Assembly: GCA_009377525.1 (NCBI GenBank)
Contig: WHTW01000001.1
Coordinates: forward strand, 12,726-76,725
Direction of reading: 5' to 3'
Length of the DNA stretch: 64,000 nt
From: Rhodospirillales bacterium
GTDB taxonomy: Bacteria; Pseudomonadota; Alphaproteobacteria; Reyranellales; Reyranellaceae
Shown: piece after piece, positions 18,912 to 46,920 of the stretch
Position numbering within the stretch: the stretch's first letter is position 1
How the letters are laid out: every line of letters starts with the position of its first letter
Notes under the pieces: model-generated
What the model saw: the letters and a program-made list of their open reading frames with translations, nothing else
What the model was told of the DNA's origin: nothing
The model's database searches: none
Made by a program: the position numbers and the translations under genes

Positions 18912-19744
18912 CAGCGCTTCTCGAGCCAGAGGCTGGCCGGCAGGGCGTCGTCCGGCCGTGGCAGGCGCGCGACCACGGAAGAAGCCAGCCGTTTGGTCAG
19001 CCGTCGCTCCGCCCAGGCGCTGGAGAACAGCGGCCGGTAGGCGCCGGTCGTCAGCAGCGGCACCACGCCCTGCTGCTCGTTGTAGGCGCGCCAGCCCCAG
19101 ATCGCCGGATAGTCGAACGGCAGGAAGATGTCGTGGATGTGCACCAGCGTGCCGGCCGGCGCCGACGGCAGGACGCGGTTCAGCAGGATGTCGGCGTCGC
19201 TGCCCGGCATCAGGATATGGCTGGAATCGATGAACAGCGCGTCGCCCGCCTTCAACACGTTGAACAGGTCGGCGGGTGCCGCCTGCAGGGTCGAGGGCAC
19301 GACGCGCACGCCGGGCAGGTCGACGATGTCGGCCCGTGGCGCGGGATCGACGGCGACGATCTCGCCCAGCCCGCCCAAGGCCTTCGACAGCACGCGCGTC
19401 GAATGGCCCGAGCCGACCTCGATGATGTGCTGCGGCTTGCGCTCGCGCACCAGGGCATAGGCCACCGAGGCGTCGAGCGAGGGGAACCACGACTGCTCGA
19501 ACAGGCTTTTGAGGTCCTCGAGCTGGCTGGCGTGCGCGTCGACGGCGTCGAGGATGCCGGTGAAGGTGGGCGTCGCCTCCTCGAACAGCCGCTCGATCGC
19601 GGGATAAGGCGGCTGCGCGCCGGGCGGCGGCAGCAGGGGCGCATAGCGGTGCGGGATGAACCAGCCGCGCGGCTTCAGGCCAAGCACGGTCGGCAATCCC
19701 AGCTTCAGCCGCCGCCAGCGGCCGCGCAGGCTGGGCGCACTCAC
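18911..19744 (-). CDS. Class I SAM-dependent methyltransferase (Methyltransf_24-like)
   Basis: The 277-residue protein has motif I at HIIEVGSGHSTRVLSKALGG (about 106-125), then EIVAVDPAPR, and VHIHDIFLPFDYP late in the domain. DALFIDSSHI is typical of sugar- or lipid-associated methyltransferases of the Methyltransf_24 group. The substrate is not known. It is flanked by the MBL hydrolase (four-base overlap) and the cyclase (one-base overlap), so all three are probably one operon transcribed leftward. Confidence 0.82.
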   Translation of the reverse strand: MSAPSLRGRWRRLKLGLPTVLGLKPRGWFIPHRYAPLLPPPGAQPPYPAIERLFEEATPTFTGILDAVDAHASQLEDLKSLFEQSWFPSLDASVAYALVRERKPQHIIEVGSGHSTRVLSKALGGLGEIVAVDPAPRADIVDLPGVRVVPSTLQAAPADLFNVLKAGDALFIDSSHILMPGSDADILLNRVLPSAPAGTLVHIHDIFLPFDYPAIWGWRAYNEQQGVVPLLTTGAYRPLFSSAWAERRLTKRLASSVVARLPRPDDALPASLWLEKR

Positions 19745-20589
19745 GGGCTGAGCGTCAGGCCTTCATGGGCGACGATCGCGCGCGGCAGGCCGTTGGCGGC
19801 GGTGCCGGGACGCGCCGCCGCCGCCTCGCGCGCCACGCCGTCCATGAAGGCGTCGTCGTGGCTGGGATCGTGATGGAAGATGGCAAGCGTGCCGACGCCG
19901 GCGGCGTCGGCCACCCGCATGCCTTCCTGCCAAGTCGAATGGCCCCAGCCCTTGTAGCGGGGATATTCGGCATCGGTGTAGCTCGAGTCGTAGATCATCA
20001 CGTCGGCGCCGCGGCACAGCTCGACGATGGCCTTGTCGAGACCGTCGCCGCGCTGCTCGGTGTCGGTGATGTAGCAGATCGACTTGCCGCCGTATTCGAC
20101 GCGATAGCCGGTGGCACCGTTGGGGTGGTTGAGCGGGACGGTGCGCATGGTCATGTCGCCGCACGCCAGCATGTCGCCGCCCTTGAATTCGTTGAACTCG
20201 ACGCGCGCCTGGAAGACCTCCAGGCTCACCGGATAGAGCGGCGCCTGCATCAGGTTGCTCACCACTTTCTTGAGGGCGTGGGGACCCTGCAGATGGCCGG
20301 CCCACAGGCGCACTGCATTGCGCTGCTCGAACAGCGGCGCGAAGAAGGTGAGGCCGGTGATATGGTCGAGATGGGTGTGGGTGAAATAGATGTCGATGTC
20401 GATCGGCGCCTGGCGCGCCAGCTCGAGCCCGAGCGGCCGGATGCCGGTGCCGGCGTCGAAGATCAGGCGGCGGCCGCCGGCGGTGACCTCCAGGCAAGAC
20501 GTATTGCCGCCATAGCGCGTGTACTCGGCGCCGGAGCAGGAAATCGAGCCACGCACTCCCCAAAAACGGACTTTTAGACCATGCGCCAA
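19741..20589 (-). CDS. MBL-fold metallo-hydrolase
   Basis: The 282-residue protein carries the binuclear metal motif FTHTHLDHITGL, giving H71, H73, D75 and H76, and a further H in NHPNGATGYR. The N-terminus (VRFWGVRGSISCSG, then RYGGNTSCLEV) marks a subgroup often annotated as cyclic-nucleotide phosphodiesterase-like or MBL hydrolase. Being in one operon with a cyclase, hydrolysis of a cyclic nucleotide is an attractive but untested idea. The promoter must lie in 20590-20801, which is otherwise gene-free and shared with divergent hspQ. Confidence 0.85.
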   Translation of the reverse strand: MAHGLKVRFWGVRGSISCSGAEYTRYGGNTSCLEVTAGGRRLIFDAGTGIRPLGLELARQAPIDIDIYFTHTHLDHITGLTFFAPLFEQRNAVRLWAGHLQGPHALKKVVSNLMQAPLYPVSLEVFQARVEFNEFKGGDMLACGDMTMRTVPLNHPNGATGYRVEYGGKSICYITDTEQRGDGLDKAIVELCRGADVMIYDSSYTDAEYPRYKGWGHSTWQEGMRVADAAGVGTLAIFHHDPSHDDAFMDGVAREAAAARPGTAANGLPRAIVAHEGLTLSP

Positions 20590-32114: not shown

Positions 32115-32603
32115 TCAGTCCACCTGGTACAGAAAATACCGATCCTTCGGCACGCCCGGTGGGTCGGGCTGGCGGCGCCAGCGCGCTACGGCGAGCGGTT
32201 GGTTGGCGAGCACGTAGCCGCCCGGCCCCGCCAGCGTGTCGAGCGCCGGGCCGAGCCACTTGCCCACCGCCATGTTGGCTTCGTGATCACCGGTGCCGAG
32301 ATCGGTATGGATCAGCGCCGCCGTCGCGCCCAGTCTTTGCGCGGCCTCGGCAATCGCCTCCCGCGCCTCGCCTAAAAACAGCCGGTCGTCCGGCGGGATG
32401 CAATCGGGATGGGCCGCCACCTTGCGCTCGAAGACGTAGATGTCGCGGCCGGGAAAGAGATCGCGCAGATGGTCGTAGGTGCGGCCGTTGCCCAGGCCTA
32501 CTTCGAGGATGGGGCCGGGCAGGGCGTCGATCTTGGGCTTCAGGAAATTCAGGCAGTCGCGCTGCGCCTGCATGCGTGCGATGAAACTGTCGAGGCGGCT
32601 CAT
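32115..32603 (-). CDS. Small class I SAM-dependent methyltransferase
   Basis: The 162-residue protein has motif I at GPILEVGLGNGRTYDHL (about 30-46) and the next acidic strand in DIYVFERKV; TAALIHTDLGTGDHEAN follows. The compact length fits the SAM_MT_6 family, found mostly in alphaproteobacteria and of unknown substrate. ATG at 32603 gives MSRLDSFIARMQAQ. The upstream side meets palindrome P5. Confidence 0.85.
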   Translation of the reverse strand: MSRLDSFIARMQAQRDCLNFLKPKIDALPGPILEVGLGNGRTYDHLRDLFPGRDIYVFERKVAAHPDCIPPDDRLFLGEAREAIAEAAQRLGATAALIHTDLGTGDHEANMAVGKWLGPALDTLAGPGGYVLANQPLAVARWRRQPDPPGVPKDRYFLYQVD

Positions 32604-32704: not shown

Positions 32705-33163
32705 TCAGGCCGCCTTGTTGTTCGCCGTCGCCTCGCGCAGCTTCTTGTTGGTGTCCTCCACCCGGTGCGCCAGTTCGCGCATGATCTCGATGGCCATCTG
32801 CGGGAACTCGCCGACCATGCGGTAGAACGTGTCCTTGGAAATCTTCAGCGTGTTCAGCGGCTCGCGCGCCTTGATGGTGGCGGTACGCGGCACGTCGCAC
32901 AGGATGGCGATCTCGCCAAAGAAGTCGTTCTTGTTCATCTCGGAGACTTGGATCTGCCCGGCCGGCGTGTCGATCAGCACGTCGGCCACGCCGCCCAGGA
33001 TGACATACATGGCATCGCCCGGATCGCCCTGATGGCAGATCTCCTGCCCCTCGACGAAGTTCATGCGCTCGCTGGTGAAAGCCAGCAGCTTCAGTTTGGC
33101 CGGCTCGATCTTGGCCAGGATCGGTACGCCCTTCAGCAGTTCGACTTCTTCGTTGAGGTTCAT
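32705..33163 (-). CDS. Cyclic-nucleotide-binding-domain protein
   Basis: The 152-residue protein is a single cNMP-binding (Crp-like) domain: a beta-roll beginning at VPILAKIEPAKLKLLAF and the phosphate-binding cassette region in FFGEIAILCDVPRTATIKA, with the R in PRTAT. There is no HTH. It ends in a short charged coiled-coil tail (VEDTNKKLREATANN). It lies 19 bases downstream of the ABC gene and shares its transcript, so it may sense cAMP/cGMP for that transporter. Such pairs of cNMP-domain and ABC genes recur, to my knowledge, in alphaproteobacteria. Confidence 0.85.
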   Translation of the reverse strand: MNLNEEVELLKGVPILAKIEPAKLKLLAFTSERMNFVEGQEICHQGDPGDAMYVILGGVADVLIDTPAGQIQVSEMNKNDFFGEIAILCDVPRTATIKAREPLNTLKISKDTFYRMVGEFPQMAIEIMRELAHRVEDTNKKLREATANNKAA

Positions 33164-33182: not shown

Positions 33183-35906
33183 TCAAGCCGACGCCATCAG
33201 CTCGGCGTAGAGCCCACCTTTTGCCGCCAGATCGGACGGCGCTCCGTGGGCGGCGATCCTGCCACCCTGCATAACGACGATCTGCTCGAACGGCTCCGCC
33301 TGGGCCGGCCGGCTGGCGATCCAGACGATGCCGCGATCGTCCTTCTTCGCCGTCGCCAGGATATTGTCGCGGATGCGGTCCTGCGTGCGGCCGTCGAACG
33401 AGGCCACCGCCTCGTTGACGATCATGAGTTGCGGCCGCTTGATCAGCGCACGGGCGATGCCGAGCTTCTGGCGCTGCGTGGCCGTGAGGCGCTTGCCGCC
33501 GACGCCGACATTGTACTCGAGCCCGACCTCGATCACCGAGTTGTGCAGGCCAAGCTTGTTCAGTACCTCGGAGGTCAGCGTGCCGATGCGCTGCTCGCCC
33601 TGCGCCTGGCCGTAGACCAGGCGGCCGAACAGGATGTTGTCCTGCAGCGTGGCCGCGCTGTTGTATCGCTCGAAATCGTAGAACTCGACGGCGCCGCGCA
33701 GTGACTCCGGCAGGCCGGAGGCGAAGGCGTGCCGCGCCGCCAGCAGGCGCTCCTCCATCGCCGCATCGATCAGGCCCAGGCGATGGCGCGCCTCGATGTA
33801 GCGGAAGGGCAAGGTCATCAGGCGCGGCCGGTCGGCTTCGGGCACGGCGTCGATGCCCTTGCCGCCCAGGCGTTGCAGCAGCAGGCGAACGTTGGGCAGT
33901 TCGTCGGCCGAGATGAAGCTGTACTGCTCGAACAGCGGATTGTCAGGCGACAGGCCGGAGAACAGCTCGACCATGGTCTCGGCGATGGTGAGCCCCACGC
34001 GCTGCAGGTCGAGGTCGATGCCGGTCGCCCTCAGCACCGATTGCATGTAGGGGTCGACGGCGATGTTGTCGCCGGCGAAGTCCTTGCCGAGCGGCGTGCC
34101 GAACAGGATGTTCTCGGCGACCGACAGGTTGCGGTTGTAGCGGTCGGCGGTGAAGGTCTCGACCAGGCCGGCGTAGCTCGGATCCTGCAGGCGGCCGTGC
34201 ATGGCGTGGCGCGCCTTCAGGATCCTCTCCGTGAGATCGGGCCGGGCGGCCTGATCGATCGTGCCGCGCAGGCCCAGCGCATAGATGTCCTCGTCGAGCT
34301 CGACCTGCTTCAGCACGTCAACCATGCACGGCAGCAGGTCGGCCGGTCCGGTGGCGCCGGCCAGCTCGTAGTCGATCCAGTCCGCGTTGGGGTCGAGCGC
34401 CGGATTGCCGGCGCGCACCGATTCCTTCCAGAAGGCTTCGCGTTCGTCCTTGAGGGCGTCGTCGTATGTGGCCGGCGCAACCGGACGGTTCTTGAGGCCG
34501 AACAGCAGGTTGTCGCGCACCGACAGCGGGAACAGGTAGGTCTCCTGGCCGATATAGGCGGTGCGCGAACCCAGCACGTATTCGGGCAGCTGGAAGAAGT
34601 CGTTGCCGTCGATCTTGATCGAGCCCGCACTCGGCATTGTCAGCCGCGCCAGCACCTGGCCCAGCACGTCCTTGCCCGAGCTGGAACCGCCGATCACCGC
34701 GAGCTTGCTGCAGGTCGGCAGGACCATCGACACGCTGTCGAGCTGCTTGACGCGGCCGTCCTCGGAGACCGTGATGCCGGCCAGCGCCAGCTCGCGGCCG
34801 AGCGGCGGCGGCGGACCGTCGGGAAGCGCCTGCAGCGTCTCCGGCATCATGCCCTCGGGCTGGAACTGGTCGATCACCTGCTCGTACTTGATCTGCACGT
34901 CCTGGCGCTGCTGATCCCAGTCGAGCAGCTCCTTGATCGGCGACGGCAGGTCCTTGTAGGCCAGCAGCACGCCGACCACGGCGCCGACGTCCATCTGGCC
35001 GGTGATGGCGAAATAGCCGCCCACCAGGTAGATGGCGAACGGCGTGGCCTGCGACAGGATGTTGTTCCAGAACTTGGCGACGAACTTCTTCTGGTAGAGG
35101 TCGAAACGGATCTTGAAGATGCGGCCCAGCCGTTCGGCGATGTCGGCGCGCTCGTAGTTGGCGGCGCCATGGATATGTATCTCGTGCACGCCGTCGGCGG
35201 TCTCGGCGATGCGGCCGGCGAGCTGGCGCGCCGTGATCTGGCGCTGGCGGCCGAGCACCAGCACCGGCCGGCGCAGCCGCGGGACGATCGCCATCTGCAC
35301 GCCCAGCAGGACGATGACGACGATGCCCAGCAACCAGTTCTGCAGCATGATGAAGAGGATCGCCGTCAGCGCCTGGCCGCCGAGGAACATCGGCTGCACG
35401 AAGGCGTCGCCGATGAAGCCGCCCAACGGCTCGACCTCGTCCTTGATCATGGTGGCGAGCTCAGCCTGCTTGACCTTGCGGAAATGCGCCGGCGGAAAAC
35501 GCAGGATGCGCTCGTAGAGCTCGTAGCGCAGGCGGCGCAGCATGCGCTCGCCCATGCGGCCTTTCTGCGTGTTGATGGTCTTCTTGAACAGGCCGTTCAC
35601 GATCACCGCGCCCAGGAAGACGAAGCTCATGGTCACCAGGTAGCCGAGCTGGTCGACCTGGAAGCCGTCGAAGATGCGGATGACCTTGCCGGGCAGGATG
35701 GCCGAGAGGTCGAACTCAAAGACCAGGAAGGGGATGGTCTTGCTGTCCTTGAAGGCGTTGCCCTGGATGCCGTCGTTGATGACCGCCTTGGGCACCGTCA
35801 ACGACAGGAAATAAAAGACCTGGGCCAGCACCACGAGGCCCAGGATGACGATCTGCTCGGGCCTGCTGTGTCGCCAGATGTAGGTGAACAGATTGCGTTG
35901 CATCAA
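33183..35906 (-). CDS. Atypical ABC exporter-like protein with a degenerate ATPase domain and a large insertion
   Basis: The 907-residue protein has an ABC exporter membrane half (about 1-330, five or six helices). Its nucleotide-binding half is unusual: Walker A is GGSSSGKD (406-413) with D for S/T; the signature is RLTATQRQ (806-813) instead of LSGGQ; Walker B is LMIVNE (827-832) with N for D; and the switch H is S865. A Q-loop (YIGQETYLFP) is kept. Between the Q-loop helix and the signature there is about 330 residues where normal proteins have about 70, including VRDNLLFG (463-470), VAENILFG (596-603) and LQDNILFG (754-761): the same motif three times. ATP hydrolysis is probably impaired. 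The cNMP-binding protein follows. Confidence 0.9.
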   Translation of the reverse strand: MMQRNLFTYIWRHSRPEQIVILGLVVLAQVFYFLSLTVPKAVINDGIQGNAFKDSKTIPFLVFEFDLSAILPGKVIRIFDGFQVDQLGYLVTMSFVFLGAVIVNGLFKKTINTQKGRMGERMLRRLRYELYERILRFPPAHFRKVKQAELATMIKDEVEPLGGFIGDAFVQPMFLGGQALTAILFIMLQNWLLGIVVIVLLGVQMAIVPRLRRPVLVLGRQRQITARQLAGRIAETADGVHEIHIHGAANYERADIAERLGRIFKIRFDLYQKKFVAKFWNNILSQATPFAIYLVGGYFAITGQMDVGAVVGVLLAYKDLPSPIKELLDWDQQRQDVQIKYEQVIDQFQPEGMMPETLQALPDGPPPPLGRELALAGITVSEDGRVKQLDSVSMVLPTCSKLAVIGGSSSGKDVLGQVLARLTMPSAGSIKIDGNDFFQLPEYVLGSRTAYIGQETYLFPLSVRDNLLFGLKNRPVAPATYDDALKDEREAFWKESVRAGNPALDPNADWIDYELAGATGPADLLPCMVDVLKQVELDEDIYALGLRGTIDQAARPDLTERILKARHAMHGRLQDPSYAGLVETFTADRYNRNLSVAENILFGTPLGKDFAGDNIAVDPYMQSVLRATGIDLDLQRVGLTIAETMVELFSGLSPDNPLFEQYSFISADELPNVRLLLQRLGGKGIDAVPEADRPRLMTLPFRYIEARHRLGLIDAAMEERLLAARHAFASGLPESLRGAVEFYDFERYNSAATLQDNILFGRLVYGQAQGEQRIGTLTSEVLNKLGLHNSVIEVGLEYNVGVGGKRLTATQRQKLGIARALIKRPQLMIVNEAVASFDGRTQDRIRDNILATAKKDDRGIVWIASRPAQAEPFEQIVVMQGGRIAAHGAPSDLAAKGGLYAELMASA

Positions 35907-36084
35907 TATCCGCAGTCGAAGCCCCAGGTGCGGCGCCCCTCTCTCCTATATTAGATCAGTGCCTTGATTACATTCGGTATTTTGCATCGCGGGAGGGGTT
36001 CGCGTGCCCGCCCCAGTATGGCATAGTCCGGCCGAAATCACCGGTCGGGGCAGGACGCGCTTCGGCAAGGAGAAAGACGCCCGT

Positions 36085-37362
36085 ATGCCTCACAGCCGGT
36101 CCAAGCGTGCGCTGATCTACAGCCACGACTCCTTCGGCCTCGGCCATGTGAGCCGCTGCCGGACCATCGCCAACGCCCTGGTGGCGGCCGACCCCAATGT
36201 CTCGGTCCTGATCGTGTCGGGCTCGCCCGTCATCGGCTCCTACGAGTTCCGCTCCGGCATCGATTTCGTGCGCATTCCCGGCATCGTCAAGCAGATCGAG
36301 ACCGGCGAGTACGATTCGGCCAACCTCAGGGTCGGCGTCGAGCATACGATGGCGATGCGGACCCGGATCATCCGCGACACCGCCGACATCTACCGGCCCG
36401 ACCTGTTCATCGTCGACAAGGAGCCGACCGGCCTGCGCGGCGAGGTCGTGCCGGCGCTGAAGCTGCTGAAGGAGCGCGGCACGCCGCTGGTGCTGGGCCT
36501 GCGCGACGTCATGGACGATCCGGCGGCGCTCGCCGCCGAATGGGAGCGCAAGCACGTCGTGCCGGCGTTGCGCGATCTCTACGACGAGATCTGGATCTAC
36601 GGCCTGCCGCAGATCAACAAGCCGTTGACCGGCATCGAGGTGCCGCCGTCGGTGCGCCACAAGATGGTCTATACCGGCTATCTGCGCCGCGACCTGCCAT
36701 TGCACAGTGACGTGCCGCACGAGATGGAGGAGATCGGCGGGCCCTTCATCCTGGTCACCGCGGGCGGCGGCGGCGACGGCGCCGACCTGATCGACTGGGT
36801 GCTGGCGGCCTATGAGAGCGATCCGCACATCCCTTACGGTGCGTTGATCGTGTTCGGCCCCTTCATGTCGGCTGCCGAGCGCGAGGCCTTCAAGGAACGG
36901 TCGGCCAAGTTCAGAAACATCCGCACGCTCACCTTCACCAACAATCTCGGCGCTCTGATGCAGCGCGCGGCGGGCGTGGTGGCGATGGGCGGCTACAACA
37001 CCTTCTGCGAGATCCTGTCCTTCGACAAGAAGGCGATCGTCGTGCCGCGCACCAGGCCGCGCCTGGAACAGTTCATCCGCGCCCGCGCCGCGCGCAATGT
37101 CGGCTTGATCGAGATGCTCGATGCCGACCGCGGCCGCGATCCGCATGCCATGGCGACCGCACTGCGCCAGTTGCCGCAACAGGGCCTGCCGAGCGACGTC
37201 GTCGTGCCGGGCCTGCTCGATGGTCTTCCCAATGTCTGGCGTCTGGTCGCCAAGCAGCTTGCCCATCCTCACCGCGGCCCCGCGTCGCTCGAGGCGATCT
37301 GGAGCGACGTGCCAGACCCCGCCGCGCCGCCGGCCGTGCCTCCGGCGCGCGCCAGGACCTGA
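36085..37362 (+). CDS. GT-B glycosyltransferase (COG4671-like)
   Basis: The 425-residue protein opens with RALIYSHDSFGLGHVSRC and IANALVAADPNVSVLIV, the nucleotide-sugar transferase pattern of MurG/UGT-like GT-B proteins. A second Rossmann half has ILVTAGGGGDGADL and GVVAMGGYNTFCEILSF (about 313-329), where the donor phosphate binds. It resembles predicted glycosyltransferase COG4671, and the gene at 40342 shares the same start motif. ATG at 36085 was preferred over an upstream GTG. It begins the rightward cluster, 178 bp from the divergent ABC gene. Confidence 0.87.
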   Translation: MPHSRSKRALIYSHDSFGLGHVSRCRTIANALVAADPNVSVLIVSGSPVIGSYEFRSGIDFVRIPGIVKQIETGEYDSANLRVGVEHTMAMRTRIIRDTADIYRPDLFIVDKEPTGLRGEVVPALKLLKERGTPLVLGLRDVMDDPAALAAEWERKHVVPALRDLYDEIWIYGLPQINKPLTGIEVPPSVRHKMVYTGYLRRDLPLHSDVPHEMEEIGGPFILVTAGGGGDGADLIDWVLAAYESDPHIPYGALIVFGPFMSAAEREAFKERSAKFRNIRTLTFTNNLGALMQRAAGVVAMGGYNTFCEILSFDKKAIVVPRTRPRLEQFIRARAARNVGLIEMLDADRGRDPHAMATALRQLPQQGLPSDVVVPGLLDGLPNVWRLVAKQLAHPHRGPASLEAIWSDVPDPAAPPAVPPARART

Positions 37363-37376
37363 TCGCCGGAATCTTC

Positions 37377-38657
37377 ATGTCTTCGCCAATCGACGCGCGT
37401 GTCGCGGTCGTGCTCAAGGGCTGGCCGCGCCTGTCCGAGACCTTCATTGCCCAGGAGATCGCCGGCCTCGAGGCGCGCGGCGTCGCACTCGAAATCTGGT
37501 CGCTGCGCCGGCCGACCGACAAGCATCGCCATCCCGTGCATGACCGCGTGCAGGGCCGCGTCGTCTATCTGCCGGAGTACCTGAAGAACGATCCGCGCCG
37601 CGTCTGGGCCGGCTGGCTGAAGGCGCGGCGCCTGTCGGGCTATGCGACGGCGCGCGCGCGATTCCTGGCCGATCTGCGGCGCGATCCCTCGGCCAACCGG
37701 CTGCGCCGCTGGGGCCAGGCGCTGGTGCTGGCGGCCGAATTGCCGACTGGCGTCGAGCGGCTCTATGCCCATTTCCTGCATACGCCCACGGCGGTGACGC
37801 GCTATGCCGCCCTGATGCGCGGCTTGGCGTGGAGCGTGTCGGCACACGCCAAGGACATCTGGACCAGCCAGCCCTGGGAGACGGCGGAAAAGCTCGCCGA
37901 CTGCAGTTGGGCCGTGACCTGCACCAACATGGGCGCCGAGCGCCTGCGCGCCTTGGCGCCGCGGCAGGACAAGGTGAGGCTCATCTATCACGGCCTCGAC
38001 TTCGCGCATTTGCCGGCGCCGGTGCACTTGCGGGCGCGGCGCGATGGCAGCGATGCCGCCGATCCCGTCGTCATCCTGTCGATCGGCCGCAAGGTCGAGA
38101 AGAAGGGTTTTGGCGATCTTTTAGACGCACTCGCCCTGCTGCCAAAGACGCTGCACTGGCGCTTCGAGCATATCGGCGCCGGCGAGCTCGGCGACATGCT
38201 GAAGGCGCAGGCCGAGCGGCTCGGCATCGCCGATCGCTGCACCTGGCTCGGCGCCCAGCCGCAGAAGCAGGTGTTCGCCGCCCTCGCACGCGCCGACCTG
38301 TTCGTGCTGGCGAGCAAGAAGTCGGCCGACGGCGACCAGGACGGCCTGCCCAACGTGCTGATGGAAGCGGCTCACCAGGGCCTCGCCATCGTCTCGACCC
38401 GCGCCGCCGCGATCGGTGAGTTCATCGAGGACGGCGACAACGGCCTGCTGGTGCCGCCCGGCGCGCCCGAGGCGCTGGCCGCCGCCCTGGCGCGCATGAT
38501 CGTCCATCCCGATCTGCGCCAGCAGTTTGCGCACCGCGCCGCCGAGACCGTGCGCACCCGCTTCTCCTTCGACGCCGGCGTCGACTGGATCGCCTCGGCG
38601 CTGGGCCAGGATGTCCGCCGAGAGGCCATTCTGTCGGAGGCAAGGGCGGCGGAGTAG
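37377..38657 (+). CDS. Glycosyltransferase family 4 protein
   Basis: The 426-residue GT-B protein starts VAVVLKGWPRLSETFIAQEI, the family opening of colanic-acid-type transferases. VIYHGLDF-like sequence (IYHGLDFAHL) and VVILSIGRKVEKKGF begin the donor half, followed by GDQDGLPNVLMEAAHQGLAI, carrying the conserved EX7E motif. It likely adds a hexose to a lipid-linked or nascent polysaccharide in the cytoplasm. It lies 14 bases after the previous gene. Confidence 0.92.
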   Translation: MSSPIDARVAVVLKGWPRLSETFIAQEIAGLEARGVALEIWSLRRPTDKHRHPVHDRVQGRVVYLPEYLKNDPRRVWAGWLKARRLSGYATARARFLADLRRDPSANRLRRWGQALVLAAELPTGVERLYAHFLHTPTAVTRYAALMRGLAWSVSAHAKDIWTSQPWETAEKLADCSWAVTCTNMGAERLRALAPRQDKVRLIYHGLDFAHLPAPVHLRARRDGSDAADPVVILSIGRKVEKKGFGDLLDALALLPKTLHWRFEHIGAGELGDMLKAQAERLGIADRCTWLGAQPQKQVFAALARADLFVLASKKSADGDQDGLPNVLMEAAHQGLAIVSTRAAAIGEFIEDGDNGLLVPPGAPEALAAALARMIVHPDLRQQFAHRAAETVRTRFSFDAGVDWIASALGQDVRREAILSEARAAE

Positions 38658-38660
38658 ACC

Positions 38661-39761
38661 ATGCGCGTGCTGTTGCACACGCCGCTCAAGTCACCGGACA
38701 GTCCCATTCCCTCGGGCGATCGCGAGATGGCGCGTGGCCTGCGGCGATTGCTGCGCCGGCTCGGCCACACGGTGGTGATGCCGGCGCTGAACCGCGTCGC
38801 GCCGGGCGTGCCCGCGCCGCACGACCATCTCGCGCTCGAGCGGCGGGCGCGGGCGCAGGCGCAACGGCTGATCGCGCGCTGGCGCGCCCTGCCGGCGCGC
38901 CATCCCGAGCGCTTCGGTCTCTGGCTCACCTACCACTGCTACTACCGCAAACCTGACTGGCTGGGCCCGATCGTGACCCGGGCGCTGGGCCTGCCCTACG
39001 CGCTCGTCGAAACCTCGCACGCGCCGCGCCGCGCCCAGGGGCCGACGCGGCTCGGCCATCGCGCCGTCGAGCGCGCCCTCGCCGCCGCCGACCTGGTGTT
39101 GACGGTCAATCCGCGCGACGTCGCCGGTGTGAAGGCGCGGCTGCGGCCGGGTGCGCATCAGGTCTGGCTGCCGCCCTTCATCGACACGCGGCCGTTCGAT
39201 CTGGCGCCGCGCGCGGCCAACGATCCGCCGCTGCTGCTGAGCGTCGGCATGATGCGCACGCGCGACAAGCTCGAATCCTATCGTGTGCTCGCAAACGCGC
39301 TCAGTCAGCTGAAGCACAAGCCCTGGCGGGCGCTGCTGGTCGGCGACGGGCCGGCGCGCAGCGAGGTCGAGGCGATGATGGTGCCGCTTGGCGAGCGCGT
39401 GCGCTTTGCCGGCGCCGTGGCGCACACCGATTTGCCGGCCATCTATGCGTCGGCCGACCTTTACCTTTGGCCCGCGATCAACGAAGCCTACGGAATGGCC
39501 TTCCTCGAAGCCCAGGCGGCGGGCCTGCCCGTCGTTGCCGGCCGCACCGGCGGCGTGCCTGCAGTCGTCGCCGACGGGATCACTGGCGTCCTGACGCCGA
39601 TCGGCGATGCTGCGGCGTTCGCCGCCGCGACAGCCCGGTTGCTCGACGATGCGGGCGAGCGTGCACGATTTGCCAAGGCAGCCCGCACGCGGGTCAACGC
39701 CCGTCATGACGAGCGCGCCGCGGCGCATGCCCTGGCGGCTGCCTTGCGGACGCTGCGATGA
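38661..39761 (+). CDS. Glycosyltransferase
   Basis: The 366-residue GT-B protein begins MRVLLHTPLKSPDSPIPSGD, with the second half at PLLLSVGMMRTRDKLESY and the donor site in LWPAINEAYGMAFLEAQA (EX7E). GLPVVAGRTGGVPAVVADG follows. It is a GT4-type enzyme, a third transferase of the cluster. The start lies three bases after the previous stop and the end overlaps the histidine phosphatase by four bases, showing tight coupling. Confidence 0.9.
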   Translation: MRVLLHTPLKSPDSPIPSGDREMARGLRRLLRRLGHTVVMPALNRVAPGVPAPHDHLALERRARAQAQRLIARWRALPARHPERFGLWLTYHCYYRKPDWLGPIVTRALGLPYALVETSHAPRRAQGPTRLGHRAVERALAAADLVLTVNPRDVAGVKARLRPGAHQVWLPPFIDTRPFDLAPRAANDPPLLLSVGMMRTRDKLESYRVLANALSQLKHKPWRALLVGDGPARSEVEAMMVPLGERVRFAGAVAHTDLPAIYASADLYLWPAINEAYGMAFLEAQAAGLPVVAGRTGGVPAVVADGITGVLTPIGDAAAFAAATARLLDDAGERARFAKAARTRVNARHDERAAAHALAAALRTLR

Positions 39762-40345
39762 GCGTGCCGTTCGCCGTCTTGCGCCACGCCGCGACCGATT
39801 GGAACGTCGAGCGCCGCCTGCAAGGCCTGACGGACACGCCGCTCAACACCGCCGGCGAGGCCGATGCCCGCGCCTGGCGCCTGCCATCGCCGGCCGACGG
39901 CTGGCAGCGGCTCAGCAGCCCATTGCAGCGTGCGCGCCGAACCGCCGAGCTGCTGCAGCCATCGGCGCCGGTCATCGTCGATGCGGCGCTGCGCGAGATG
40001 AGCTTCGGCACCTGGGAAGGCCATACCATCGCCCAACTGCGTGAGAGCGTCGGTGCGGCCTTCATCGCCGCCGAGAACAAGGGATTGGACTTCCAGCCGC
40101 CCGGCGGGGAATCGCCGCGTGCGGCGATGGCCCGCATCGGCGGCTGGACGGTGTCGATTGCCGCCGCCGGCCAGCCGGTCGTCGCGGTGTCGCACAAGGC
40201 CACGATGCGCGCCCTGCTGGCGCTGGCCACGGGCTGGGACATGATGGGCCGGCCGCCGCACAAGCTCGACTGGCGCTGCCTGCATTTCTTCTCGGCACAT
40301 GGCGACGGCCGCGTCTCGGTCGATCGCCTCAACGTGCCGCTATGA
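39758..40345 (+). CDS. Histidine phosphatase family protein
   Basis: The 195-residue protein is a phosphoglycerate-mutase-like phosphatase with the catalytic histidine H10 in VLRHAATDWN (RHA variant of RHG), the acid/base glutamate in REMSFGTWEGH and a second histidine in VVAVSHKATMRALL. It could remove phosphate from a sugar phosphate made or used by the neighbouring transferases. It overlaps both neighbours by four bases (ATGA). Confidence 0.9.
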   Translation: MSVPFAVLRHAATDWNVERRLQGLTDTPLNTAGEADARAWRLPSPADGWQRLSSPLQRARRTAELLQPSAPVIVDAALREMSFGTWEGHTIAQLRESVGAAFIAAENKGLDFQPPGGESPRAAMARIGGWTVSIAAAGQPVVAVSHKATMRALLALATGWDMMGRPPHKLDWRCLHFFSAHGDGRVSVDRLNVPL

Positions 40346-41481
40346 GCCGCGTCTTCTTCTATGTGCAGCATCTGCTGGGCATCGGTCATCTGCGCCGCGC
40401 CGCCGTGCTGGCGCGGGCGCTCGTGGCCGGCGGCTTCGACGTGCTGCTGGTCTCGGGCGGTGCGCCGGTCGAGGGCCTGGTGCTGGGTGGCGCGCGCTTT
40501 CACCAGCTGCCGCCGTTGCGCGCGGCCGACGAGAGCCTGCGTGATCTCGCCCGGCTCGACGGCACGCCCGTCGACGACGCATTCCAGCGCCAGCGAACCG
40601 GAGCCCTGCTCGGCCTGCTCAGCGCCGAGGCGCCGGACATCGTGATCACCGAGCAGTTCCCCTTCGGCCGCGCGCGGCTGCGCTTTGAATTGCTGCCGCT
40701 CCTGGAGGCGGCGCGAGGCTTGCCGAAGCGGCCGTTGATCGCCTGCTCGGTGCGCGACGTGGTGCGCCGCGCCGGCCCCGAAAGGATCGCCGAAACCGAG
40801 CAGATCCTGGAGCGCTTGTTCGATGCCGTGCTGATCCACGGCGACCCTCGCCTCGTACCTTTCGAGAGAAGCTTCGCCGGCTGGGCGCGCATCAAAGAGT
40901 GCGCCTTCCATACCGGCTATGTCTCGGAGCACGAGTCGGCGCAGGGGATGCAGAGCGCCGAAGGCAAAGATGAGGTCGTCGTCTCGGTGGGCGGCGGCGC
41001 CGTCGGTGCACCTTTGCTCAAGGCTGCCATCGCCGCGCGGCCGAGGACGGCGCTGGCCGACCGCACTTGGCGATTGCTGCTGGGCGAGAACCTGCCGGCG
41101 CATGACCGGGCCGCGCTCGCCCGCGAGGACGGCATCGTCATCGAGCCGGCGCGGTCCGACTTCACGACGCTGCTTGGCAACGCCACCCTCTCGATTTCCC
41201 AGGCCGGCTACAACACCACGATCGAAACCCTGTGCTGCGCCGACCGTGCCGTGCTGGTGCCCTTTGCCACCGAGCGCGAGACCGAGCAGGCGGACCGTGC
41301 CCAGGCGCTTGCCGAGCGTGGCATGGTTGCGGTTGTGCCACCGGGCATGCTGTCGGCACAAAGCCTGGCTGATGCCGTCGGTCGTGCGCTTGCCGGTCCG
41401 TCGCTGAAAAGCTTCCCGGCGTGCGACGTCGATGGCTGCCCGAAGACGGCGGCGCTATTGCATCGCCTGTTGGTCAGATGA
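40342..41481 (+). CDS. GT-B glycosyltransferase (MurG/UGT-like)
   Basis: The 379-residue protein begins MSRVFFYVQHLLGIGHLRRA and AARALVAGGFDVLLVSGG, resembling the 36085 protein in its HDSFGLGHVSR-type opening. The donor half has VVVSVGGGAVGAPLLKAA and ATLSISQAGYNTTIETLCC, equivalent to the GGYNTFCEIL site of the first protein. The two are likely paralogues with different acceptors. It overlaps the histidine phosphatase and the deacetylase-like gene by four bases each. Confidence 0.87.
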   Translation: MSRVFFYVQHLLGIGHLRRAAVLARALVAGGFDVLLVSGGAPVEGLVLGGARFHQLPPLRAADESLRDLARLDGTPVDDAFQRQRTGALLGLLSAEAPDIVITEQFPFGRARLRFELLPLLEAARGLPKRPLIACSVRDVVRRAGPERIAETEQILERLFDAVLIHGDPRLVPFERSFAGWARIKECAFHTGYVSEHESAQGMQSAEGKDEVVVSVGGGAVGAPLLKAAIAARPRTALADRTWRLLLGENLPAHDRAALAREDGIVIEPARSDFTTLLGNATLSISQAGYNTTIETLCCADRAVLVPFATERETEQADRAQALAERGMVAVVPPGMLSAQSLADAVGRALAGPSLKSFPACDVDGCPKTAALLHRLLVR

Positions 41482-42248
41482 GCACCTGGGCAGATCTTTT
41501 GGACGAGGCGGCGCGCTGGTCGCAGGCCGGCCGCACGGCCGAGCTGTGGTGGCGCGACGACGATGCCGCCGATGTCGGGCCCGCGCTCGAGCGATTGCTG
41601 ACGATCCATCGCGATACCGGCGTGCCGCTGGCGCTTGCCGTCGTGCCGGCGACGGCGACGCAGGCTCTTGCCGACCGGTTGGCGGGCGAGCCGGGTGTCG
41701 ATCTGCTTCAGCATGGTTACGCGCACGTCAATCACGCTGCGCCCGGCGACAACAAGAAGATCGAGCTCGGCACCGAGCGGCCGGCGATGCTGGTGCTGGG
41801 CGAGTTGGGCACCGGCCGCATGGCGCTCGAACGGCTGTTCGGCACGCGTCCCTTGCCGGTGCTGGTGCCGCCCTGGAACCGCATCGCGCCGGCCTTGGTG
41901 CCAACCTTGCCGGAGATCGGCTTCGCCGGCCTCTCGACTTTCGGTGCACGGCGGCGCATGCATCCGGTGAGGGGGCTTCTCGAGGTCAACACACACGTCG
42001 ACCTGATCGACTGGAAGGGCGGCCGCGGCTTTGTCGGCGAGGCGGCTGCACTGGACGCGCTTGTTTCCGCTTTGGCCCGTGCGCGCGCGCCCGGCGAGCC
42101 CGTGGGCGTCCTCAGTCACCATCTTGCGATGGACGGCGGGGCGTGGGATTTCCTAAGGTCGATGTGGCAAAAATCGCTGAAATTGCCCGGACTTCGCGTC
42201 CGACCAGCACATGAATTGTTCGCAACGGGAGGGGAGGATCGCGGTTGA
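41478..42248 (+). CDS. Polysaccharide deacetylase-like protein
   Basis: The 256-residue protein shows the NodB-type metal site: ELWWRDDDAADVG (D27-D29) and LLQHGYAHVNHAAPGDNKK with the two histidines. LPVLVPPWNRIAPALVP supplies the usual arginine/tryptophan region, and VGVLSHHLAMD the C-terminal histidine. There is no signal peptide, so it acts in the cytoplasm or on a lipid-linked intermediate. It should deacetylate an N-acetylated sugar of the product of this cluster; that is inference. It overlaps both neighbours by four bases. Confidence 0.85.
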   Translation: MSTWADLLDEAARWSQAGRTAELWWRDDDAADVGPALERLLTIHRDTGVPLALAVVPATATQALADRLAGEPGVDLLQHGYAHVNHAAPGDNKKIELGTERPAMLVLGELGTGRMALERLFGTRPLPVLVPPWNRIAPALVPTLPEIGFAGLSTFGARRRMHPVRGLLEVNTHVDLIDWKGGRGFVGEAAALDALVSALARARAPGEPVGVLSHHLAMDGGAWDFLRSMWQKSLKLPGLRVRPAHELFATGGEDRG

Positions 42249-42751
42249 GTTCAGCCGATCTGCGTTATCCGCGTCAGACCCTGTTGGCCGACTATGGGCG
42301 CGCCACGGCGGGCGTGCTGCTGTGCGGCGCACCTCTGCTGCTGCTCGACGTCAATCGCTGGCTGGCGGCGATCCTGCTGCTGGGCTTCCTGCTGTTCGCC
42401 GCATTTCTCGTGCGCACCGCCTTGCGCCACCACACGCGCTACGTGCTGGGACCCGACACGCTCTGCGCCGACGGCCCGGCCGGCACCCTGGTGGAGTGGA
42501 ACCGGCTCGACCGGCTGAAGCTCAGCTATTTCTCGACCAAGCGCGATCGCACCGACGGCTGGATGCAGCTCAGCGTCGGGTCGGCCGGCGGCCGCACGGT
42601 CAAGCTCGATTCCTCGCTCGACGGCTTCCATGATGTGGTTGAACGCGCGGCGCGCGCGGCCGAGACGACAGGCCTGCCGTTGAGCGAGACGACGCGGGCC
42701 AATCTCAAGGCGATGGGCATCTCGGTTGCGGGGCAGGAAGAGAAAGTATGA
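42245..42751 (+). CDS. Membrane protein with PH-like cytoplasmic domain
   Basis: The 168-residue protein has two close membrane helices (about 21-38 and 40-60; LAAILLLGFLLFAAFLV) followed by a beta-rich segment (RYVLGPDTLCADGPAGTLVEW) like bacterial PH/bPH domains. The start is TTG at 42245, supported by GGGAGGGGAGG upstream and a four-base overlap with the previous stop (TTGA). Its end overlaps the dual ABC ATPase by four bases. I do not recognise a named family. Confidence 0.75.
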   Translation: MSSADLRYPRQTLLADYGRATAGVLLCGAPLLLLDVNRWLAAILLLGFLLFAAFLVRTALRHHTRYVLGPDTLCADGPAGTLVEWNRLDRLKLSYFSTKRDRTDGWMQLSVGSAGGRTVKLDSSLDGFHDVVERAARAAETTGLPLSETTRANLKAMGISVAGQEEKV

Positions 42752-44724
42752 AAGAGCTGCTGCGCGTCGAGGACCTGACCGTCGACTTCGGAGTCCACGA
42801 AGGCACGTTGCGCGCCGTCGACCACGTCTCGTTCAGCCTGCCGCCCGGCGGCACGCTGGCGCTGGTGGGCGAATCGGGCTCGGGCAAGTCGGTGTGCAGC
42901 CAGGCCATCATGGGCCTGCTGCCGCGCACCGCGACCATCTCCTCGGGCTCCATCCTGTTCGCCGATGCGCGCGGCAGCGCCCCTCCCATCGACATCGCCA
43001 AGCTCGATCGCGTCGGGCCGCCGATGCGCGCGATCCGCGGCGGCGCCATCTCCATCATCTTCCAGGAGCCGATGACCTCGCTGTCGGCGCTGCACACGGT
43101 GGGCGACCAGATCGGCGAGGCGGTCGAGCTGCATGGTGGCGGCGGCCATTTCAGCAACATCCATTCGCTCGGCGACCAGATCACCGAAGCCGCGCAATTG
43201 TCCGGCCGCAAGCTCGGCCGCGCCGAGATCGAGGCGCTGACCGTCGACATGCTGCGCATGGTGGGCTTCCCCGATCCGAAGCGGGCATTGCGCACCTATC
43301 CCTTCGAACTGTCGGGCGGCCTGCGCCAGCGCGCCATGATCGCGATGGCCCTGGTCTGCCGGCCGGCGCTGCTGATCGCCGACGAGCCCACCACCGCGCT
43401 CGACGTCACCATCCAGGCACAGATCCTGCGTCTCATCAAGGACCTGCAGGCCGAGCTCGGCATGGCGCTCCTGATGATCACCCACGATCTCGGCGTGGTC
43501 GCCAACGTCGCCGACGACGTCGTGGTGATGTACCGCGGCAAGGTCGTCGAATCGGGCGACCTGCACGACATCTTCCGCGATCCGCAGCATGCCTATCTCA
43601 AGGCACTGCTGCATGCCGTGCCGCGCTTCGACATGGCGCCCGGCGAGCGGCTGCAGCCGATCCGCGAGATCACCGCGGCGACGGGCCACCTGTTGAAGGA
43701 AAAGGCGGTCTCCAAGCCGACCGAGACCTTCAATCCCAATGCGCCGGTCCTGAAGGTCCGCCACCTCTCCAAGACCTTCCAGATCCGCAAGGCCGACACC
43801 CTGTTCGAGCAGCTCACCGGCGGCGGGACGACCCGAACCGTGCGCGCCGTCAACGACGTGAGCTTCGACGTCGAGCGCAACGAGTGCCTGGGCCTGGTCG
43901 GCGAATCGGGCTGCGGCAAGACCACGCTCAGCAAGATTCTCATGCGCGGCATCTCGGCTAACCCGAACGAAGGCGCTGGCCGCGTCGTATTCGACGACTG
44001 GGGCCGCAAGATCGACGTGCTGTCGTTGGAAGGCGCCGACCTCGACCGCTTCCGCACCAAGCTGCAGTTCATCTTCCAGGACCCGTTCGGCTCGCTCAAT
44101 CCGCGCATGACGGTCTACGACATCCTGGTCGAGCCGCTGGTCATCCATAAGATCGGTGACGACGCCTATCGTCGCGAGATGGTGAGCGAGCTGATGGAGA
44201 TGGTCGGGCTCGACCGCCGCCATCTCAGCCGCTACCCGCACTCCTTCTCAGGCGGCCAGCGCCAGAGGATCGGCATCGCCCGCGCCTTGGCGCTCAGGCC
44301 GGACATGGTGATCTGCGACGAGCCGGTGTCGGCGCTCGACGTGTCGATCCAGGCGCAGATCCTCAATCTCCTGAAGGACCTGCAGAAGCAGCTCGGCCTC
44401 ACCTACATGTTCATCTCGCACAATCTCGCGGTGGTCGATTACATCGCCGACCGCATCGCCGTGATGTGCGCCGGCCGCCTGGTCGAGATGGCGCCGGCGG
44501 GCGAGCTGTTCCGCAATCCGCTGCATCCCTACACCAAGGCACTGCTCTCGGCGGTGCCCATGCCCGATCCCGACGCCCGCCTCGATCTCGGCGCGCTGAT
44601 GGAAGGCAAGGCCTCCGATCCGACGGCCTGGCCCGAGCCTTTCCGCGACGATCCCACCAACCAGGTGTTCTGGACGGAGGCCTCGCCCGGCCACTACGTG
44701 CGCGTCGCACGGGGAGGGATCTAG
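42748..44724 (+). CDS. Oligopeptide-type ABC transporter, fused dual ATPase
   Basis: The 658-residue protein joins two complete ABC ATPase domains of the DppD/DppF type. Domain 1: Walker A GESGSGKS (41-48), signature LSGGLRQR, Walker B LLIADEPT. Domain 2: [24 protein letters not shown]. The helical region of domain 1 has a 23-residue tandem duplication, [13 protein letters not shown] (116-128) then [13 protein letters not shown] (139-151). It should drive a peptide or opine importer together with the two permeases downstream. Confidence 0.93.
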
Positions 44725-44726
44725 CC

Positions 44727-45725
44727 ATGCTGCGCTTCATCGTCCGCCGCGTGCTGCTGATGATCCCGACGTTGTTCATCATCAGTGCGCTGGTCTACTT
44801 CATCATCGACCTGCCGCCGGGCGACTGCGTCACCGCGCAGGTCGACGAGCTGCTGTCGCGCGGCGATCCCGACGCGCTGCGTCGCGCCGAAGAGCTGCGC
44901 CACATGTACGGCCTCAACGATCCGCTGTGGCAGCGCTACCTCGAATGGGTAGCCGGCATCTTCCGCTGGGATTTCGGGCTTTCCTGCCAGGACACCGTGC
45001 CGGTGGCCGACCTGATCGGCGAGCGGATGGCGCTCACCCTCGTGATGGAGAGCGCCACCATCGCCTTCATCTGGATCGTGTCGTTCGTGATCGGCGTCTA
45101 TGCCGCGACCCACCAGTACAAGCTCGGCGACTACCTCGCCTCGTTCATCGGCTTCATCGGCCTCTCGATCCCGAACTTCCTGCTCGCACTGGTGCTGCTC
45201 TATGTCGGCAAGGTCTATTTCGGCCTGTCGATCGGCGGCCTGATGGATCCCGAGTACATCGACCAGTCGATGAGCTGGGGCAAGGTCGGCTCGATCCTGC
45301 AGCATCTCGTCATCCCGGTGATCGTCATCGGCATGTCGGGCACCGCCGGCATGATCCGACGGCTGCGCGCCAACCTGCTCGACGAATTGCAGAAGCAGTA
45401 CGTCGTCACCGGCCGTGCCAAGGGCCTGCCGCCGCTGAGACTCCTCATCAAGTACCCGCTGCGTCACGCCATCAACCCGTTCGTCGCCGATATCGGCGGG
45501 CTGCTGCCGGACGTGATCTCGGGCTCGGTCATCGTCTCGGTCGTGCTGTCGCTGCCGACCACCGGCCCCATGCTGCTGGGCGCGCTGAAGACCCAGGACG
45601 TCAATCTCGCCGCCACCTTCCTGCTGTTCGTCGCGGCGCTGACCGTGGTCGGCATGCTGATCTCGGACCTGGCGCTGGCTGCGCTGGATCCGCGCATCCG
45701 CTTCGGCGCCACCTCAGAGAAATAG
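44727..45725 (+). CDS. ABC transporter permease (DppB type)
   Basis: The 332-residue inner-membrane protein begins MLRFIVRRVLLMIPTLFIIS, the DppB/OppB signature, and has a periplasmic loop (PPGDCVTAQVDELLSRGD) followed by five more helices. The EAA loop that docks on the ATPase is in RANLLDELQKQYVVTGRAKG. The extended loop with a GDPDALRRAEELRHMYGL segment is a feature of this clade. It starts two bases after the ATPase stop. Confidence 0.93.
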   Translation: MLRFIVRRVLLMIPTLFIISALVYFIIDLPPGDCVTAQVDELLSRGDPDALRRAEELRHMYGLNDPLWQRYLEWVAGIFRWDFGLSCQDTVPVADLIGERMALTLVMESATIAFIWIVSFVIGVYAATHQYKLGDYLASFIGFIGLSIPNFLLALVLLYVGKVYFGLSIGGLMDPEYIDQSMSWGKVGSILQHLVIPVIVIGMSGTAGMIRRLRANLLDELQKQYVVTGRAKGLPPLRLLIKYPLRHAINPFVADIGGLLPDVISGSVIVSVVLSLPTTGPMLLGALKTQDVNLAATFLLFVAALTVVGMLISDLALAALDPRIRFGATSEK

Positions 45726-45741
45726 GGTCGGAGAAGTAGCC

Positions 45742-46920
45742 ATGACCGACCAGACCACTCCCTCGTCGCGGCGGCGCTCCGACCACTTCGTCAACAAGGA
45801 GCCGTGGGATCCCTACGTCGCCGAGCGCCTGACGGCCGATCAGGAAAAGTACTACATGGCCGGCCAGTGGAAGCTGATGTGGTGGCGTTTCCGCCGCCAT
45901 CGGCCGGCCGTGGTCTCGGCGATCTTCCTGGCGCTGATCTACTTCTCGACGGTGATCAGCGAGTTCATCGCGCCCTACGACCTGCACACGCGGCATTCGG
46001 CCTACATCTTCGCGCCGCCACAGGAGGTCCACTTCGTCCACGAGGGCCAGTTCATCGGGCCGTTCGTCTATGCGCTCAAGACCACGCGCGACATGGAGAC
46101 CCTGCAGCGCGTCTATTCGCCCGACACGACCAAGCCGCAGCAGCTGCGCTTCTTCTGCCTGGGCGATTCCTACGAGTTCTGGGGTCTGATCGAGGGCCGT
46201 TTCCACTTCGTCTGCCCGCCGGAGGGTGGGCAATTCTTCTGGCTGGGCACCGACCGGCTGGGCCGCGACATGTTCAGTCGCATCGTCTATGCCGCGCGCA
46301 TCTCGCTCACCATCGGCATCATCGGCATTGCGCTCTCTTTCACGCTGGCCTTGGTCCTGGGCGGGCTGGCCGGCTACTACGGCGGCTGGGTCGACAGCGT
46401 TGTCCAGCGCATCACCGAGATCATCAAGAGCTTCCCGCACCTGCCGTTGTGGCTGGCGCTGTCGGCGGCGCTGCCGGTCACCTGGTCGCCGCTGTTGGTC
46501 TACTTCGGCATCACGATCATCCTGGCGCTGCTCGACTGGCCGGGGCTGGGGCGCGCTGTGCGTTCCAAGCTCTTGTCGCTGCGCGAGGAGGACTATGCCG
46601 CCGCCGCCCAGATGATGGGCGCCAAGCCCGGGCGCATCATCGGTCGCCATCTGCTGCCGGGCTTCATGAGCCATCTCATCGCCTCGGCCACGCTTTCCAT
46701 CCCGTCGATGATCCTGGCCGAGACAGCCTTGAGCTTCTTGGGGTTGGGCCTGCGGCCGCCCATCACCTCCTGGGGCGTGCTGCTCAACGAGGCGACCGAC
46801 ATCAACGTGGTGGCGGTGAACTGGTGGCTGATGCTGCCCGTGATCCCGGTGATCCTGGTCATTCTGGCTTATCAGTTCATGGGCGACGGCATGCGCGACG
46901 CGGCTGATCCCTACAGCTGA
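45742..46920 (+). CDS. ABC transporter permease (DppC type)
   Basis: The 392-residue protein is longer than usual DppC because of about 75 residues between the first helix (VVSAIFLALIYFSTVISEF) and the DppC core, which starts at FFWLGTDRLGRDMFSRIVY. The EAA loop is EEDYAAAAQMMGAKPGRIIG. It forms the importer with the gene before. No periplasmic binding protein is encoded next to the operon, so the importer must borrow one from elsewhere. Confidence 0.92.
   Translation: MTDQTTPSSRRRSDHFVNKEPWDPYVAERLTADQEKYYMAGQWKLMWWRFRRHRPAVVSAIFLALIYFSTVISEFIAPYDLHTRHSAYIFAPPQEVHFVHEGQFIGPFVYALKTTRDMETLQRVYSPDTTKPQQLRFFCLGDSYEFWGLIEGRFHFVCPPEGGQFFWLGTDRLGRDMFSRIVYAARISLTIGIIGIALSFTLALVLGGLAGYYGGWVDSVVQRITEIIKSFPHLPLWLALSAALPVTWSPLLVYFGITIILALLDWPGLGRAVRSKLLSLREEDYAAAAQMMGAKPGRIIGRHLLPGFMSHLIASATLSIPSMILAETALSFLGLGLRPPITSWGVLLNEATDINVVAVNWWLMLPVIPVILVILAYQFMGDGMRDAADPYS

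Follow-up and report, generated by a model that had tools for sequence, protein, structure and literature searches.

The exporter gene and its neighbours

The window, a 64,000-nucleotide stretch of a Reyranella-like genome of 7.35 Mb, contains a gene for an ABCB-type ABC exporter homologue on the minus strand (33183-35906). The open reading frame encodes 907 residues if its TTG is the start, or 906 from the ATG at codon 2 (35901-35903), which is probably the true start and is the one shared with relatives. Residues are numbered here with the TTG as 1, and numbers in the AlphaFold2 (AF2) model are one lower. The closest relatives, 92% identical, are labelled Reyranella or Rhodospirillales.

The exporter has a transmembrane domain (TMD; PF00664, residues 2-345, 34872-35903), which is its best conserved part and matches with an E value of 2.1e-16 and 60.9 bits against a cutoff of 28. 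Pfam recognises only the first part of the nucleotide-binding domain (NBD; PF00005, residues 389-485), and the middle region has no Pfam match. The AF2 model, built from 54 sequences, has an overall pLDDT of 86, with most of the NBD and the insert above 90. In this model the NBD fold is whole, with 239 of 239 residues aligned to the NBD of ComA (3vx4) at 2.0 Å and a Z score of 28.6, the insert being skipped. By fold (TMD plus NBD) the protein is an ABCB-type ABC exporter, and it fails on the catalytic features tested.

Directly downstream on the same strand lies a gene for a 152-residue cyclic nucleotide (cNMP)-binding protein (32705-33163; PF00027, E 5.3e-19). A cNMP gene is found on the same strand, at most 150 nt downstream, in 55 of 70 non-redundant loci, and in 8 more of the 70 the cNMP protein matches the exporter ORF itself; in addition, six of seven long exporter members tested with Pfam carry PF00027 fused at their C-terminus. 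The adjacent or fused domain lends support to the suggestion, made from the sequence alone, that the exporter is regulated. The phosphate-binding cassette of the cNMP domain (GEIAILCDVPRTA, 32879-32917, minus strand) is intact by comparison with PKG, in which G182, E183, A185 and R192 contact the cyclic phosphate and ribose (PMC3080414). Among 56 partners, the corresponding Gly is kept in 56, Glu in 54, Ala in 47 and Arg in 55. Furthermore, a Thr follows the cassette Arg in 50 of the 56, like PKG Thr193, which hints at a preference for cGMP. The hint falls short of proof, because cAMP-preferring HCN channels also have Thr at this position.

A class III nucleotide cyclase is also encoded in the window (17559-19490, minus strand), and the adjoining gene encodes an MBL-fold hydrolase (19741-20589, minus strand) with a homologue (48%) within the Mesorhizobium exporter cluster. 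Because 37 domains of this kind are encoded in the genome, the cyclase by itself means little and does not count as evidence of a dedicated partner. PADLOC matches the cNMP domain to Pycsar effectors, presumably through the shared domain alone; it gives no match for the exporter, and a defence role was set aside.

Beyond the cNMP gene, and often next to it in the same direction, is a SAM methyltransferase gene of the Methyltransf_17 family (32115-32603, minus strand). On the other side of the exporter, a divergent plus-strand series encodes a glycosyltransferase with a GT28 C-domain that resembles MJ1255/VC2487 (36004-37362), two GT4-type glycosyltransferases (37377-38657 and 38661-39761), a histidine phosphatase family protein (39758-40345), a GT28/MurG-like glycosyltransferase (40342-41481), and a polysaccharide deacetylase family homologue with 42% identity to a Mesorhizobium cluster protein (41421-42245). 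With neighbours counted by homology to the window genes, at least 23 of 40 diverse loci have three or more of the four glycosyltransferases no further than about 5 kb away, divergent and nearly always in the same order, and a deacetylase homologue is present in 49 loci, close relatives included. Members fused to the cNMP domain mostly do not have the glycosyltransferase operon within 5 kb, a point against the glycan-pathway role proposed below. A related cluster that includes a gene for a nucleotide sugar dehydrogenase is found on plasmids of Mesorhizobium and Sinorhizobium meliloti. Adjoining the glycan operon are genes of a dipeptide-type ABC importer (a fused ATPase and two permeases; 42748-46920, plus strand); ORFs matching the importer ATPase lie close to family members in 25 loci, and importers of this type are also present in the Mesorhizobium and S. 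meliloti clusters.

Eroded ATPase motifs and a tripled helical segment

The ATPase motifs of the exporter each depart from the canonical GxxxxGK[ST], DE, LSGGQ and switch His. Specifically, Walker A is GGSSSGKD (residues 406-413, 34668-34691), the signature is LTATQ (807-811, 33474-33488), Walker B is LMIVNE (827-832, 33411-33428), and the switch position is Ser865 (33312-33314); the Q-loop glutamine is Q454. The sequence-only reading had identified each of these four departures correctly. Among 70 non-redundant members (below 80% identity), the Walker A Ser/Thr position is Glu or Asp in 54 and Ser/Thr in 4, and the Walker A lysine position is Lys in 41 and Arg in 21. The Walker B Asp position is Asn in 40, Ser in 11 and Asp in 10, while 37 members have the catalytic Glu, 20 the switch His and 57 the signature Gln. 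A tree of the members traces the acid in Walker A to deep branches, with the other motif positions eroding in separate lineages. In a further set of 131 full-length relatives, drawn from all fetched loci and including many close Reyranella relatives, no protein has more than two of the five canonical motifs, and LSGGQ is absent from all of them.

Q454 and L807 are 353 residues apart, compared with roughly 57 between Q-loop and signature in MsbA, and these residues hold three repeat units, with about 295 residues more than usual. The unusually long spacing was apparent from the sequence-only reading, although its estimate of about 330 residues was slightly too low. Its octamers ending in NLLFG or NILFG do start at 463, 596 and 754, and the RYN lead-in that it saw in copies 2 and 3 is indeed shared; the exact form F-x-RYN, however, occurs in copy 3 only (VEFYDFERYN, as against VETFTADRYN in copy 2), and the common pattern is VEx[FY]xxxRYN. 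Unit 1 (residues 449-573, 34188-34562) comprises the Q-loop strand, the DNLLFG helix, an NADWIDYE segment and an ILKAR helix. Unit 2 (582-730, 33717-34163) comprises a VETF strand, RYN, ENILFG, about 70 extra residues and an LLAAR helix, and unit 3 (740-822, 33441-33689) a VEFY strand, RYN, DNILFG and the remnant signature helix.

We aligned the three segments with HHalign, using sub-profiles from the 70 non-redundant members. Copies 2 and 3 match with P = 5e-19, copies 1 and 2 with P = 5e-7, and copies 1 and 3 with P = 4e-7, far beyond unrelated control segments (P > 0.07). The match between copies 1 and 3 begins upstream, where the Q-loop strand LPEYVLGSRTAYIGQETYLFPLSVRDNLLFG aligns with LPESLRGAVEFYDFERYNSAATLQDNILFG, indicating that the repeated unit starts at the Q-loop strand. 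The ILxAR helix and the LSGGQRQR helix look alike by eye, but a repeat of the signature helix at the sequence level is not significant (P 0.05-0.12) and was dropped.

The insert modelled alone (residues 474-797, 33516-34487) has a pLDDT of 93 and no sequence match in Pfam or the PDB, and a Foldseek search with it returned nothing below E 0.001 and no confident PDB relative. A second structural comparison placed ABC exporters in 49 of the best 50 matches, nearly all of which align residues 589-730 onto the region from the Q-loop to the signature helix. In particular, the insert aligns with MsbA 425-497 over 73 residues at 2.6 Å (Z 3.8; best Z overall 4.6), and the LLAAR helix of unit 2 falls at the position of the signature helix. 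Z scores of at most 4.6 are low, below what is normally convincing alone, and are supportive rather than proof. Together, the profile repeats and this second comparison favour the proposal of the sequence-only reading that the insertion consists of two extra copies of the helical subdomain. Judged from the sequence profiles, the insertion is a genuine tandem triplication. The most economical origin for it would be a tandem duplication running from the Q-loop strand to the signature helix, with the true signature surviving as a remnant in copy 3. That the NBD is degenerate, conserved and tripled is, in our assessment, almost certain.

Conservation and relatives of the family

An initial search for related loci gave 76 loci. 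A profile search gave strong and almost always full-length matches in 131 of 386 alphaproteobacterial genomes (a set distinct from the 131 relatives used for the motifs). Of 397 genomes taken from the phylum, 31 had such a match, and every one of these belongs to the Alphaproteobacteria. Plasmid records add members in rhizobia, Azospirillum, Ruegeria and Sulfitobacter, and one contig labelled Muproteobacteria bears a member; the family may extend beyond the Alphaproteobacteria. Our searches turned up no model specific to the family in Pfam, NCBIfam or PADLOC and no paper on it in the literature.

The motif changes and the tripled segment are conserved among these homologues. If this copy were simply a decayed gene, its homologues should have intact motifs and a helical region of ordinary length; we looked for such homologues among the 131 full-length members and found none. 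Against close relatives, dN/dS is 0.1-0.4 in each region compared (TMD, the two halves of the NBD, insert), values that indicate purifying selection on every region. The broken motifs are what decay in one strain would leave, but full-length relatives throughout the Alphaproteobacteria, purifying selection and the lack of stop codons make this explanation vanishingly improbable, and we reject it.

Mean pairwise identity within the family is 54% in the TMD, 38% in the NBD and 41% in the insert, whereas 27 MsbA-like exporters of the same class, picked for intact motifs and so slightly favouring their NBD identity, average 45% in the TMD and 64% in the NBD. On these sequence comparisons, the balance of conservation between TMD and NBD is inverted relative to MsbA-like exporters. 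Conserved TMD stretches in the main family include GERMLRRLRYEL and EVEPLGGFIGDA.

A sister subfamily (L202:3579-6131, L203:3171-6125, L204:4986-7586) has Walker A GERGSGAR, a Walker B without acid, no signature and no switch His. Its TMD is barely recognisable, and its tripled module is highly conserved, retaining VEPFDPARYNHQATVGENILFGEAVGP and VEFYDP...ENLLFGRI. In addition, there are homologues of about 400 residues that consist of the TMD without any NBD (L199:4920-6161, minus strand; L200:4788-5987, plus; L201:4785-5984, plus). The TMD and the tripled module can thus each outlast the ATPase chemistry. The TMD-only gene in L200 adjoins genes for a multicopper oxidase, CopB, a YHS-domain protein and a cytochrome c.

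The best NCBIfam match of the exporter is TIGR02203, the MsbA lipid A exporter (E 7.6e-52), with 176.6 bits against a cutoff of 602. The exporter shares the TMD and NBD fold and the order of elements with MsbA-type (ABCB) proteins, but differs from them in its degenerate motifs, its approximately 295 extra residues, its inverted TMD/NBD conservation and its cNMP partner. NHLM bacteriocin exporters and the cyclic-nucleotide-type transport-associated proteins (TIGR03796, TIGR03896) likewise link an ABC exporter to a cNMP-type domain. The exporter scores 146.9 bits with TIGR03796 (cutoff 853), and the TIGR03896 score is 35 (cutoff 161); unlike in NHLM exporters, no peptidase domain was matched in the protein, and we know of no helical triplication among them.

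S. meliloti MsbA2 (SMb21191; Beck et al. 2008, cited in PMC12239276) is likewise an alphaproteobacterial MsbA-like protein, encoded beside glycosyltransferase genes on pSymB, and is believed to export a polysaccharide of unknown structure. A relative 45% identical to the exporter lies on pSymB of strain 2011 (NC_020560.1, 841727-844435; locus L155), an interval at which PLSDB lists no gene. The MsbA2 operon maps at about 938 kb on pSymB (PMC3687685) and the relative at 841.7-844.4 kb, so that the latter is evidently a different gene, as judged by map position and assuming that the maps of the two strains agree. It may be a good genetic model.

Possible roles of the exporter

We propose, at a probability of roughly 45% for the whole chain of reasoning, that the exporter is a cNMP-controlled component of a glycan exporter or flippase with a pseudo-ATPase NBD. 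The protein would be the homodimeric, ABCB-fold membrane component of a surface-glycan pathway in which control has shifted from ATP to a cyclic nucleotide. Its TMD, which retains the exporter fold and bears most of the constraint, would handle, gate or anchor a glycan (or lipid-linked glycan) produced by the adjacent glycosyltransferases. The NBD, whose ABC fold is intact in the model, would be a pseudo-ATPase that does not run the canonical ATP sandwich cycle, and the tripled helical subdomain would be an enlarged platform, probably docking the cNMP-binding subunit, the biosynthetic enzymes or both, a role that is our guess. cAMP or cGMP bound to the partner or fused domain would then switch the assembly. 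In a more specific and rather tentative form, the protein would be a cyclic-nucleotide-gated ABC protein in which cGMP or cAMP replaces ATP as the controlling ligand and is read out through the triplicated subdomain, the TMD working without ATP turnover, either as a gated flippase or channel or as an anchor in glycan synthesis.

A related possibility is that nothing is pumped, and that the TMD merely anchors a cNMP-responsive complex controlling the glycosyltransferases, in the manner of SUR. The throughgoing erosion of the ATPase motifs, the sister subfamily with its conserved insert and hardly recognisable TMD, and the conserved linkage to glycosyltransferases and a sensor domain would all suit such a scaffold or regulator. 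We nonetheless consider it unlikely, although well worth keeping in view, since the TMD is the most conserved part of the main family, which argues that its function matters. SUR1/SUR2 and CFTR do use the ABC exporter fold in regulated, non-pump roles, but the likeness is at most functional: they bind ATP and are related by the exporter fold alone, whereas here a separate or fused cNMP domain has the intact ligand site.

Residual or altered nucleotide binding or hydrolysis by the NBD is possible, judging from its sequence, because the Walker A Lys is mostly kept and the catalytic Glu and signature Gln persist in many members. An active exporter might accordingly have relocated its Mg-binding acid, pairing a Walker A acid with a Walker B Asn, and hydrolyse ATP, perhaps only with the cNMP domain occupied. 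The Walker A acid is consistent and deep-branching rather than scattered as in random decay, and the P-loop Lys/Arg and often the Walker B Glu remain. However, members differ freely in the signature, the second acid of Walker B, the Q-loop and the switch His, the residue counts do not clearly bear out co-variation between positions 413 and 831, and the sister subfamily does without all such residues, which together make this reading quite doubtful. Also improbable is a heterodimer of the TM287/288, TmrAB or TAP type, in which this protein would be the degenerate half and a gene elsewhere would supply the canonical partner. Those exporters share the NBD fold and the loss of canonical catalytic residues at one degenerate site, and the genome does have other exporters, but degenerate halves usually keep Walker A, and here the Walker and signature sides are both lost. 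Nearly all motifs are gone, the helical subdomain is tripled, no canonical half-transporter lies beside the gene, and a neighbouring exporter gene, found in only one of the loci examined, is not a conserved feature of the family.

As far as our literature search shows, the family is unnamed and uncharacterised. Dependence on ATP is taken as part of what defines an ABC exporter, and here the whole ATPase toolkit is eroded in a conserved homologue, present in about a third of the sampled alphaproteobacterial genomes, rhizobia included, that retains the TMD, the tripled subdomain and the cyclic-nucleotide site. If the proposal is true, it would show how the ABC exporter fold can give up its role as a motor and become a component under ligand control, and alphaproteobacterial cAMP/cGMP signalling would be linked directly to the export of surface glycans.
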